From NCBI RefSeq assembly GCF_900102525.1, contig NZ_FNBZ01000002.1, positions 186,001 to 250,000 on the forward strand: a stretch of DNA of 64,000 nt, written 5' to 3'. Under the pieces are notes generated by a model. It was not told the DNA's origin, did not search any database, and saw only the letters and a list, made by a program, of their open reading frames with translations. A program made the translations under genes and the position numbers. The DNA comes from Allobosea robiniae (GTDB lineage: Bacteria > Pseudomonadota > Alphaproteobacteria > Rhizobiales > Beijerinckiaceae). Shown here piece by piece: positions 3,822 through 56,282 of the stretch (position 1 is its first letter; each line of letters begins with the position of its first letter).

Positions 3822-3996
3822 GGCCGCATCCGTTTCGCCGACATCGCCGAAACCACATCCGCCGACCGGGCCGCGCAAGCCGCTTTCATGAGCCCGGAGG
3901 TCAACGCCCGACAGCGCGATTGCGCCCTCGGGCGCGAAACCGCTTGGCGATGAGGTGAGGTGCTGAAGGCTCCCTGAGGCAAGCAGGCAGGTCCGC

Positions 3997-19335: not shown

Positions 19336-19887
19336 ATGGCCAAACTGAAGCTCGCCGTCATCGTGGGCAGCAACCGCCGCGAATCGATCAACCGCAAGCT
19401 GGCCGAGGCGCTGGTGAAGCTGAGCGCCGGCGCCTTCGACGCGACCATCATCCAGATCGACGACCTGCCGATGTTCAACCAGGACCTGGAGCCGAACCGG
19501 CCGGAATCGACCCTGCGCCTGAAGCGCGAGATCGAGGCCGCCGACGCGATCCTGATCGTCACGCCCGAGCATAACCGCTCGATTCCCGCGGTGCTCAAGA
19601 ACGCCATCGACTGGGCCTCGCGCCCCTATGGCAAGAATTCCTGGGCGGGCAAGACCGTCGCGGTCACCGGCACCAGCGGGGGCGCCGTCGGCACGGCCGT
19701 CTCCCAGAACGAATTGCGGATGATCCTGACCAACCTCGCCGGAGTCGTCGTGGGTGGCCAGGTCTTCGTCACCTTCAAGGACGATCTGGTCGACGCCCAG
19801 CACAATGTCACCAACGAGGCCACACGCGGCTTCCTGCAGGGCTTCATCGACAATTTCGCCCAGATCGCCGGCAAGCTCGCCGCCTGA
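19336..19887 (+). CDS. NAD(P)H-dependent FMN reductase (NADPH_dep_FMN_red family)
   Basis: A flavodoxin-fold protein of 183 residues. VIVGSNRRESINRKLAEAL binds the flavin phosphate, LIVTPEHNRSIPAVLKNAIDWASRP is the family signature, and VTGTSGGAVGT lies next to the isoalloxazine. It probably reduces FMN, azo compounds or quinones. The catalytic flavin loop is complete. A second family member is at 58372. The ATG at 19336 follows GGGGA. A good terminator follows at 19915. Confidence 0.92.
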   Translation: MAKLKLAVIVGSNRRESINRKLAEALVKLSAGAFDATIIQIDDLPMFNQDLEPNRPESTLRLKREIEAADAILIVTPEHNRSIPAVLKNAIDWASRPYGKNSWAGKTVAVTGTSGGAVGTAVSQNELRMILTNLAGVVVGGQVFVTFKDDLVDAQHNVTNEATRGFLQGFIDNFAQIAGKLAA

Positions 19888-19914
19888 TTGACGCCAACGT
19901 CGCGCTGCCGCCAA

Positions 19915-19947
19915 GGCGTCGCCCTTCTGGGCGGCGCCTTTCTCATT
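19915..19947 (+). terminator. Terminator of the FMN reductase gene
   Basis: GGCGTCGCCC at 19915-19924 pairs with GGGCGGCGCC at 19929-19938 over a TTCT loop with one mismatch, followed by TTTCTCATTT. It marks the rightward transcript end. Confidence 0.75.
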
Positions 19948-19995
19948 TCCGGGGATGTGGGGAGGCAGGCAGGCTGACGGAGATCCCAGCCTTCA

Positions 19996-20033
19996 CGCAA
20001 AAAAAGAGCCGGCGTCCCCGAGGGGAGCCGGCT
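19996..20033 (-). terminator. Strong Rho-independent terminator of the sRNA
   Basis: AGCCGGC (with TCCCC inside) pairs with its exact reverse complement around a tiny loop between 20007 and 20033. On the minus strand it is followed by CTTTTTTT. It is the strongest intrinsic terminator in the window and has no protein gene before it on that strand until 20453, whose own terminator lies at 20402-20433. Confidence 0.85.
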
Positions 20034-20139
20034 TTAAAAGTTTGAAACATCTGGCGAAACCGCCAAACATCTCAGAGGGGAACGGCTGAAACGAACTCAA
20101 CGCCGGGAGGAGATTGCGGAGCCCGTTTCGAACAACCGT
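19996..20139 (-). ncRNA. Probable AbcR-type (alpha-r15) small regulatory RNA
   Basis: No protein gene fits here, but the minus strand has all parts of a trans-acting sRNA of about 144 bases. It has an anti-Shine-Dalgarno stretch CTCCTCCC (20105-20112) and a second one, TTCCCCTCTGAG (20071-20082). It has a stem CGGC/GCCG enclosing TGA/TCA with a GTTCGTT loop, a tight hairpin TGGCG-GTTT-CGCCA (20052-20065) and a terminator with seven T. AbcR RNAs of Rhizobiales are of similar size, use two such unpaired C-rich sites to silence ABC-transporter mRNAs via Hfq, and are activated by the LysR protein VtlR/LsrB. A gene for a VtlR/LsrB-like regulator starts 1.2 kb away. Start of transcript inferred from the promoter at 20146-20174. 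Confidence 0.68.
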
Positions 20140-20145
20140 GAGTTC

Positions 20146-20174
20146 AATATCGGGCATGACCTGCCGTTTTGCAA
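20146..20174 (-). promoter_or_regulatory. Promoter of the probable AbcR-type RNA
   Basis: Read on the minus strand, TTGCAA (20174-20169) is the -35 box and GATATT (20151-20146) is the -10 box, with exactly 17 bases between. Transcription would begin near 20139. TTGCA-T-TGCAA, a small palindrome, overlaps the -35 box and could be the LysR activation site. Confidence 0.5.
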
Positions 20175-20195
20175 TGCAACATATCTTGGGTCCGC

Positions 20196-20212
20196 CATGC
20201 AGTGACTGCATG
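20196..20212. promoter_or_regulatory. LysR-type palindromic operator upstream of the sRNA
   Basis: CATGCAGT-C-ACTGCATG is a perfect 17-base palindrome with an odd centre at 20204, flanked by CTTGG/CCAAG arms at 20185 and 20215. The centre lies about 65 bases upstream of the predicted RNA start, the classical place of the LysR recognition site. The most likely binder is the LsrB/VtlR-like protein encoded next door. Confidence 0.5.
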
Positions 20213-20401
20213 AACCAAGGGCAGATGGCGTGAATTTGAGCCTAAATGATTGAGAAATATGCGTTCATTGCAGGATGAGGCCTGCGCGGGAAAGTTGCAG
20301 GTCCCGCGAAAACCGGCATTTCGTCCGCTCCTGAACAGTTTTCAGGCGAACTGTCCGAATATGGCGCATGCGAAACGCGGAAATGGTCACAAAACCGCCA
20401 G
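20213..20401. other. Remaining intergenic DNA between sRNA promoter and lsrB terminator
   Basis: About 190 bases with no supported gene. Short open frames here lack a ribosome binding site and codon bias. The DNA is slightly less GC-rich than the flanking genes. Confidence 0.5.
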
Positions 20402-20433
20402 AATCAAATCGGGCGCCTTGCGGCGCCCGATTC
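20402..20433 (-). terminator. Terminator of the LsrB/VtlR-like gene
   Basis: AATCGGGCGCC (20408-20418) pairs perfectly with GGCGCCCGATT (20423-20433) over a TTGC loop. On the minus strand the stem is followed by TGATTCT after its own TT, a modest T tract. It lies 20 bases after the stop codon at 20453. Confidence 0.8.
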
Positions 20434-20452: not shown

Positions 20453-21373
20453 TCAGTAGGTCCAGCGCTGGGCCTTCTGGATGAGGAAGTCGCGGAAGAC
20501 CTGGACGCGGGCGACCGACTTCATCTCCTCGGGATAGACCAGATAGCTTTCGAGCTGCGGCATCTCGGTCTCGCGCATCAACTGCACGAGGGGCGAGCCG
20601 GTCTCGATCAGGTAATCCGGCAGCACGGCGATGCCGGCGCCCGAATCCACCGCGCGCTTCATCGCGGTGATATTGTTGACCGTCAGATGGATCGGCCGCG
20701 GATTGCGCTGGTCGCGCCCCATGGTGCCGAGCCAGTGGACCGCCGTCAGATAGGACGGCGAGGTGCCGCCGAAGGAGAGGATGCGGTGGTTGTCGAGATC
20801 GTCGTAGCTCTTGGGCTCGCCGAAGCGCTTCACATAGGCCGGCGAGGCGTAGACGTGGAAATGCACCGTGAAGAGCTTGCGCTGGATCAGGTCCGGCTGC
20901 TGCGGCTGGCGCAGGCGGATCGCGATATCGGCCTCGCGCATCGACAGGTCGAGTTCCTCGTCGGTGAGGATGAGCTCGACCCTGATGTCGGGATAGAGGT
21001 CCAGGAACTCGGCAAGGCGAGGCGTCAGCCAGTGGCCGCCAAGGCCGCGCGTCGCCGTGACCTTGAGCTCGCCCGAAGGATGCTCGCGCGTCTCGGAGAG
21101 CTGCGAGCGTGTCCGCTCCAGCCGCTGCGTCATCTCGCGCGCCGCTCGCCAGAGCAACTCGCCCTGCTCGGTCAGGATCAGGCCGCGCGTATGCCGGTGG
21201 AACAAGGGCGCGCGCAGCTCTCGCTCGAGCGCCCCGATCTGCCGGCTGACGGCCGATTGACTCAAGCCGAGAACATCGCCAGCTTTTGTGAAGCTGCCTG
21301 ACTCCGCGACCGTATAAAAGATTCTAATGCGGTCCCAATCCACCGCGCTTCCCCCGCTATGCGTTTTTTGCAT
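20453..21373 (-). CDS. LysR-type regulator, LsrB/VtlR-like
   Basis: A 306-residue LysR-family activator. The winged HTH is DWDRIRIFYTVAESGSFTKAGD with VLGLSQSAVSRQIGALERELRAPLFHRHTRG as recognition region. From residue 95 on comes the substrate-binding domain (GELKVTATRGLGGHWLTPRL). The gene follows trxB on the same strand, an order known for lsrB in Sinorhizobium and vtlR in Brucella, regulators of symbiosis or virulence, envelope and small-RNA control. The name is inferred from this order and protein character. It ends in a good terminator, beyond which lies the probable AbcR-type RNA. Confidence 0.88.
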   Translation of the reverse strand: MQKTHSGGSAVDWDRIRIFYTVAESGSFTKAGDVLGLSQSAVSRQIGALERELRAPLFHRHTRGLILTEQGELLWRAAREMTQRLERTRSQLSETREHPSGELKVTATRGLGGHWLTPRLAEFLDLYPDIRVELILTDEELDLSMREADIAIRLRQPQQPDLIQRKLFTVHFHVYASPAYVKRFGEPKSYDDLDNHRILSFGGTSPSYLTAVHWLGTMGRDQRNPRPIHLTVNNITAMKRAVDSGAGIAVLPDYLIETGSPLVQLMRETEMPQLESYLVYPEEMKSVARVQVFRDFLIQKAQRWTY

Positions 21374-21486: not shown

Positions 21487-22539
<1,053 letters not shown>

Positions 22540-56206: not shown

Positions 56207-56282
56207 GGGCCGGTAGCTCAATGGTTAGAGCTCGCTGCTCATAACAGCGCCGGTGCCGGTTCGAGTCCGGCCCGGCCCACCA
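56207..56282 (+). tRNA. tRNA with CAT anticodon (Met elongator or Ile2)
   Basis: A full 76-base cloverleaf: acceptor GGGCCGG pairs with CCGGCCC, D-stem GCTC/GAGC, anticodon stem CGCTG/CAGCG around the loop CTCATAA, T-stem GCCGG/CCGGC with TTCGAGT, discriminator A and an encoded CCA. The anticodon CAT is shared by elongator tRNA-Met and by tRNA-Ile2, where C34 is modified to lysidine. The loop CTCATAA does not separate them, and the GGGCC/GGCCC end with A73 fits Ile2 at least as well as Met. Confidence 0.93.

Follow-up and report, generated by a model that had tools for sequence, protein, structure and literature searches.

A probable AbcR-type small RNA gene beside a cysteine-free VtlR orthologue in Bosea

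Introduction

What does the intergenic DNA downstream of a LysR-type regulator gene encode in a 64-kb stretch of DNA from Bosea or a near relative (64,000 nucleotides, hereafter the window), and is it governed by the regulator next door? The original prediction was an AbcR small RNA homologue with a cis-linked activator, possibly in a local arrangement not described for this lineage. Comparable loci are on record: PMC7486931 describes the order trxB-vtlR-abcR1-abcR2 for Agrobacterium tumefaciens, and PMC3712013 places the S. meliloti RNAs beside lsrB and states several AbcR copies per genome for Rhizobiaceae and Brucellaceae. As the linkage is known from both organisms, it is to be regarded as ancestral rather than local, although the narrower claim, that no description exists for this lineage, may be literally true; no paper naming both Bosea and AbcR1 was found among open-licence PubMed Central papers. 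The analysis below points with high confidence to a gene for a trans-acting AbcR small RNA with its transcriptional activator, VtlR, encoded next door, and the RNA would most likely throttle nutrient-uptake genes.

Results

Structure of the small RNA gene

The AbcR-like (alpha-r15) gene covers about 141 nt of intergenic minus strand (19999..20139), with a presumed start at 20139; in alignments of Bosea-like sequences, a conserved stretch opens at this start and closes at a run of T. The calculated fold consists of three hairpins (-63.3 kcal/mol, z = -5.68) and none of 200 shuffled sequences was as stable. The 5' hairpin, SL1 (20082..20139, minus strand; helices 1 and 2 of the fold), holds a first anti-Shine-Dalgarno stretch (anti-SD 1), CUCCUCCC (DNA letters CTCCTCCC; 20105..20112, minus strand), in its unpaired loop. 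The core of a second (anti-SD 2), UUCCCCUCUGAG (DNA letters TTCCCCTCTGAG), is read at 20071..20082 on the same strand, and its UCCCCUC is unpaired in the fold, between SL1 and SL2. Both C-rich stretches lie exactly where they had been predicted. SL2 (20043..20074, minus strand; helix 3) is a hairpin with a stem of 14 bp, after which the A/U-rich sequence is single-stranded; what the original prediction called the "tight hairpin at 20052" is present, but is really the tip of this stem. The gene closes with an intrinsic terminator (19999..20033, minus strand; helices 4 and 5), whose hairpin (20033..20007) precedes the expected seven T (20005..19999). A terminator scan did not report this element and found only the terminator (19913-19940, plus strand) of the converging NADPH-dependent FMN reductase-like gene (19336..19887, plus strand; PF03358, 138 bits; start codon set by eye), which lies outside the circuit.

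The fold is conserved within Bosea. Among 36 Bosea-like sequences, all 1512 cells of the 42 modelled pairs hold standard pairs and six pairs have compensatory changes on both sides; in SL1, helices 1 and 2 are paired in every cell and three pairs have changed on both sides. The covariation score (0.115 versus 0.082) was reached by none of 500 shuffles, which ignore kinship, and sliding the partners by 1-3 columns reduced pairing to below 48%. One of the five measures, the number of further pair types, was not clearly above the shuffles (64 of 500 as high). Across families, alignment with MAFFT and RNAalifold retained only 4 consensus pairs, because the families are too divergent for this route. 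When 81 copies were folded singly, every one formed at least three hairpins; anti-SD 1 could be located in 77 copies and was unpaired to at least 80% in 75 of these, and anti-SD 2 likewise in 62 of the 80 copies in which it was located. The AbcR-type layout, with anti-SD 1 in the 5' loop and anti-SD 2 between SL1 and SL2, is thus found in the fold, the pair counts and the 81 single folds alike.

A coding frame was considered and rejected: no open reading frame of at least 80 aa spans the RNA, and one minus-strand frame begins at 20000. The SL2 loop carries indels of 1-2 nt between species, which break reading frames and therefore also speak against coding.

Relationship to AbcR

In a permissive scan of 581 nt, positions 1-112 of the Rfam ar15 model (RF02345) match 20137..20003 at 28.7 bits (E 6.7e-4; E 0.0015 for this locus in a whole-genome search). 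The match to the model named in the original prediction therefore runs end to end, but falls below the gathering score of 40 bits, and so supports the prediction less strongly than a gathering-level hit would. Since this score is the curator's reporting threshold, the RNA is called here a homologue of AbcR rather than a member accepted by Rfam as ar15. A gathering-level Rfam scan of the window reports no ar15, only an ffh RNA and one tRNA (3890-3942 and 56207-56279), both ordinary. Other weak Rfam rows of the permissive scan were rejected.

The reverse search used a covariance model (R1) whose 36 sequences are the window's own RNA, 24 from loci of the genus and 11 from named Bosea-like loci (L056, whose start motif did not fit, was omitted from alignment A1). 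R1 scores the window RNA, itself among its sequences, at 171.3 bits, and over its full length (1-141) matches the canonical ar15 loci L113-L120 (E 2.5e-9 to 1.2e-5), which reach 115-127 bits under the Rfam model itself. Homology to AbcR/alpha-r15 over the whole length is indicated by these comparisons in both directions. Together with the two anti-SD stretches, which are those reported for S. meliloti, the reciprocal matches support the assignment of the feature as a small RNA gene of the AbcR/alpha-r15 kind in Bosea, in keeping with the original prediction of a homologue.

The S. meliloti AbcR1 and AbcR2 RNAs (alpha-r15, RF02345) are likewise built of three hairpins; both share anti-SD 1 CUCCUCCC and anti-SD 2 UUCCCCUC (PMC8844928) and have an A/U-rich single strand before the terminator (PMC8844928, PMC3712013). 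The anti-SD 2 core of the window RNA aligns with the ar15 core GUUCCCCUCUG. Differences are that the window RNA scores under the Rfam cut-off, that its VtlR box is imperfect, and that a single copy stands at the vtlR locus in place of the tandem pair, with a second, diverged copy elsewhere in the genome. The second anti-SD core is termed ultraconserved in the S. meliloti work. In six loci of a Bosea sister clade (L070-L075, vtlR 81-83% identical) the core GTTCCCCTCTG is altered to CCACCC(C)TCTG or CCGCCCCTCTG, a naturally occurring variant of the stretch used for targeting, with the vtlR linkage kept.

The sub-threshold ar15 score also leaves some room for a small RNA from a different family, resembling AbcR only in its C-rich anti-SD loops, to have arrived at the vtlR locus independently; at least partial anti-SD loops are described for several RNAs, for example RNAIII and CyaR (PMC3927594). 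Such an origin is nevertheless very improbable, given the full-length matches in both directions, the same three-hairpin order, and the same place downstream of trxB-vtlR. Scores are graded through other families, and no other overlapping Rfam family on the same strand has E < 0.2 (the best, Pseudomon-1, has E 0.23).

Within the order, ar15 matches at E <= 0.01 occur in 88 of 397 genomes, 25 of them over the cut-off, versus none of 14 control genomes; at E <= 10, 12 of the 14 controls have matches, none over the cut-off. R1 has matches in 109 of the 397 genomes, many of them weak. At the DNA level, 54 of 101 genomes (its own and relatives) have a match to the RNA, and R1 (E <= 0.001) finds the structure in 59 of 61 genus genomes (at least two matches in 14, one in 45, none in 2). 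In Bosea relatives, Chelatococcus, Microvirga and others, 18 vtlR loci were scanned; ar15 reaches the gathering level in none of them, and R1 detects the RNA at E <= 0.001 in 16 (no match in L103, a weak one in L109). Rfam's ar15 cut-off therefore misses the sampled AbcR RNAs of these groups.

Three weak matches were set aside. An R1 match at 26.2 bits (G058 C29, L154) shows poor loop agreement and no anti-SD, and is taken as chance, driven by hairpin and terminator; another, on the plus strand of the window (19913-20041, 19.1 bits), consists of two terminators; and an ar15 match elsewhere in this genome (G000:C12:169981-170072, 17.2 bits, E 1.16) lies in a locus, L003, in which R1 finds nothing.

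The vtlR locus

The neighbouring gene (20453..21373, minus strand) encodes a LysR-type regulator of 306 aa with LysR domains. Its best PDB relative is 9hh1 (378 bits, aligned over residues 11-306), an entry named in the paper on the LysR protein LsrB of A. tumefaciens (PMC11975290). It adjoins trxB, a thioredoxin reductase gene (21487..22527, minus strand; TIGR01292, 416 bits against a cut-off of 343). No NCBIfam model names the regulator above its cut-off. It is 93-100% identical to the protein at 36 loci (L033-L068), mostly Bosea, and an uncultured Bosea assembly has an exact match. In B. thiooxidans DSM 9653 the corresponding locus (L038) shows 90% identity. The alignment and the position beside trxB indicate that it is the LsrB orthologue, and the VtlR/LsrB-like neighbour that had been predicted is borne out.

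On the minus strand the order is trxB, vtlR, a hairpin, the presumed operator, the promoter and the RNA (20139..19999). The A. tumefaciens locus is alike in having trxB upstream and the RNA downstream of vtlR (PMC7486931); in the window, by comparison, there is neither a tandem second RNA nor a downstream ArsR gene, and the FMN reductase-like gene converges on the RNA. The linkage is widespread: among 80 named vtlR loci, an RNA follows vtlR on the same strand in 75, comprising all 37 Bosea-like loci (blastn) and 38 of the 43 others (R1, E <= 0.001; in L105 it is 1.4 kb away). The five loci without an RNA at E <= 0.001 have no R1 match (L103, L108, L111) or a weak one (L109, L110). When ar15 is the starting point instead, 24 of 30 loci in the order have vtlR no more than 1.5 kb away, and the six others come from genomes with at least two ar15 matches. 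In Chelatococcus sambhunathii and C. composti (L077, L078) a tandem AbcR-like pair stands downstream of vtlR, as in rhizobia; L076, L079, L082 and L112 have one R1 match each.

That the RNA lies on the same strand as vtlR, 313 nt past its stop codon, and that a terminator closes the region would also suit a regulatory 3' end, that is, a vtlR 3' UTR or read-through tail rather than an independent gene. This possibility is remote. A hairpin directly follows the vtlR stop (AATCGGGCGCC GCAA GGCGCCCGATT; 20407..20432, minus strand, read from the sequence) and is likely the end of the vtlR transcript, although its T tract is weak and the terminator scan does not report it. A conserved promoter block and the operator stand between vtlR and the RNA, and dispersed copies of the RNA that have no vtlR nearby keep the same promoter elements. 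In S. meliloti, moreover, the AbcR RNAs are independent units by RACE (PMC3712013). An independent gene is accordingly the preferred reading.

Promoter and presumed operator

The promoter (20146..20178, minus strand) was assigned by conservation. The hexamers TTGCAA (20174..20169) and GATATT (20151..20146) are separated by the 17 nt that had been predicted, and a conserved -35 block, TGCATTGCAAAA (20178..20167), appears in alignments of Bosea promoters and of other families. As consensus elements they are weak, and a consensus promoter scan detected no promoter-like site for the RNA; the support for the pair is its conservation.

The presumed VtlR operator (20188..20212, minus strand) includes the perfect palindrome CATGCAGTCACTGCATG (20212..20196, centre 20204) with outer arms ATGC-N7-GCAT. 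No other perfect odd-centred palindrome in the 64-kb window has arms of at least 8. About one such palindrome is expected per window by chance (an estimate, 64000/4^8), so its existence is unremarkable and it is the position, 65 bases upstream of 20139, that is remarkable; symmetry and position are both as originally predicted. Conservation covers the outer arms of the palindrome and not its symmetrical middle. In unique vtlR-linked Bosea-like promoters, GCAT is present at -61 in 47 of 47, and the partner at -72 is ATGC in 40 and ATGT in 7; the bases between the arms vary, and the perfect symmetry is therefore particular to this strain.

The VtlR/LsrB box is given as GCAT-N3-TG-N3-T (PMC7486931, PMC8844928). 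At the S. meliloti abcR1 promoter, beside lsrB, it occupies -61..-49, as here by position (PMC8844928, PMC3712013), and tandem T-N11-A motifs are reported in most sequences (PMC8844928). In the window, GCATGGCGGACCC (20200..20188) agrees with the box at 5 of 7 fixed letters, with GCAT exactly at -61; GG replaces TG and C the last T, so that the full pattern is absent from this promoter. Of the 81 promoters examined across all groups, 22 have the full box at -59, including Chelatococcus and Rhizobiaceae-like ones, and 37 have ATGC-N7-GCA[TG] at -70 to -73, compared with a chance expectation for either pattern of about 0.005-0.006 per 85 nt of window DNA. Promoters of family f11 (e.g. L126-L128) keep GCAT and have neither full motif.

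The imperfect box raises the question of whether the RNA, though real, is controlled in Bosea by another LysR protein that uses the palindrome. Such genomes hold many LysR proteins, and the Bosea VtlR lacks the redox cysteines of LsrB. This alternative is nonetheless unlikely in view of the fixed GCAT in the 47 linked promoters, the full box in 22 of the 81 promoters, and the retention of vtlR linkage in 75 of 80 loci, all of which argue for control by VtlR.

Additional copies of the RNA

Several congeners have two to four AbcR copies. Eight dispersed copies of the window type (L143-L145, L147-L150, L152) have no vtlR in the flanking stretch examined. All eight have GCAT and ATGC at the same places, in one case displaced by 1 nt; five have the -35 block TGCATTGCAAAA unchanged, and in three a single letter of it is altered. 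Operators thus travel with the dispersed RNA copies, which argues that VtlR acts on them in trans.

The genome that contains the window has two matches, the second of them diverged (G000:C7:20690-20784; 41.1 bits with R1, 26.4 bits with ar15). This copy (locus L153, 3191-3285, plus strand, contig C7) has a PRC-barrel gene nearby and is patchy in the genus. The genome-wide ar15 search did not list it, the 26.4 bits being obtained only when it was scanned alone, and as CCCCTCCC precedes the R1 match, the copy probably begins further upstream than the match does. In L153, GCAT stands 50 nt before a -10 ATAT; the same pair, at the spacing of the window locus, is found in 9 of the 12 diverged copies aligned (the best 12 of 33 places), and the other 3 have no GCAT/ATAT pair at that spacing.

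Hfq and candidate targets

An hfq gene is present in the genome (113 bits). Exact complements of anti-SD 2 within 10 nt of an ATG (GAGGGGAA-N1-10-ATG) occur at 30 sites. In the target counts, open reading frames of < 100 aa and duplicates are excluded, and TctC and DctP receptors count as solute-binding. The 30 anti-SD 2 sites lead to 15 open reading frames, all 15 scanned, two of them without a Pfam family, and 10 of the remaining 13 encode periplasmic solute-binding proteins. For anti-SD 1, 14 sites precede 9 frames, of which 7 were scanned (two antisense-looking ones omitted) and 4 of the 7 are solute-binding. A purine-rich control, GGAGAGAA, has 22 sites and 18 frames (18 scanned, 3 without a family), with 6 of 15 solute-binding; a second control, CAGGAAAC, has 24 sites and 13 frames (10 scanned, 2 without a family), with 0 of 8 solute-binding, two of the eight being other transporter parts. 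The enrichment for anti-SD 2 has a Fisher p of 0.055 versus the first control (GGAGAGAA) and 0.004 versus both. The reversed pattern has a count of 0 for anti-SD 2, but likewise for both controls, and is therefore no evidence for anti-SD 2. These counts are suggestive of solute-binding-protein mRNAs as AbcR targets; they agree with AbcR function and are not proof of it, because strong ribosome sites and solute-binding-protein genes co-occur.

A cysteine-free regulator

The window VtlR has no cysteine in its 306 aa. In the alignment with A. tumefaciens LsrB, the four cysteines of the latter (C144, C236, C244 and C273) correspond to I, V, V and V. Thiol sensing by LsrB is proposed to proceed through C144/C273 and C236/C244, and C144 and C273 are conserved in the three species that PMC11975290 compares. 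At these four columns cysteine is absent from all 80 named vtlR loci, and 7 of the 80 have one elsewhere. In the ar15 sample, 12 of 24 vtlR-bearing loci have the C144 cysteine, all in family f24, with C273 present as well in 7 of them; all four cysteines are missing from the 12 vtlR-bearing loci of families f11 and f14. We take family f24 to be Rhizobiaceae. Without cysteines, this protein cannot operate the redox switch proposed for Agrobacterium LsrB, and judging from the protein sequence the signal sensed by Bosea VtlR is not a thiol switch of that kind. The cysteines are confined to f24 within the sample and the linkage of vtlR to the RNA is wider, and the wiring is therefore broader than the cysteine switch. 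The LsrB cysteines define a proposed sensing mode, not orthology.

Discussion

The mechanism that we infer for this locus is as follows. VtlR, a LysR-type protein, would bind the site centred at -65 and make a second contact at -35, as in the general LysR model, and would thereby switch on a sigma-70 promoter. The resulting transcript of 141 nt would end at its own terminator and, with Hfq, its two C-rich unpaired stretches would pair with the ribosome-binding sites of target mRNAs, which would block translation of mRNAs for periplasmic solute-binding proteins.

The trxB-vtlR-abcR arrangement is itself known, and the more interesting parts of this locus are those that go beyond it, namely a regulator without cysteine and dispersed copies that bear the operator. 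The locus separates a conserved wiring, composed of vtlR, operator and RNA, from the redox sensing proposed for rhizobia and Agrobacterium, and in a lineage that has the wiring without the cysteines the signal of VtlR becomes a directly testable question. We propose tentatively, and with slightly more doubt than conviction, that VtlR-AbcR is an ancient circuit by which Hyphomicrobiales control transporters, free of redox gating outside Rhizobiaceae, the cysteine switch being either a local addition there or lost elsewhere, and that Bosea VtlR acts on dispersed AbcR copies, most of which carry the operator and some of which are apparently plasmid-borne. If so, the transporter silencing of a host can gain dosage or new pairing loops from accessory DNA.

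Three of the dispersed copies lie on contigs of 372 kb (L143 and L144, G028 contig C2) and 190 kb (L145, G042 contig C1), in genomes of two or three contigs, and these contigs look like plasmids. Genes for Fic, AAA or HSP90-like proteins or for a LuxI-type autoinducer synthase stand at most a few kb from L143-L145, and no Pfam family was assigned to the neighbours that were scanned for L147, L148 and L149.
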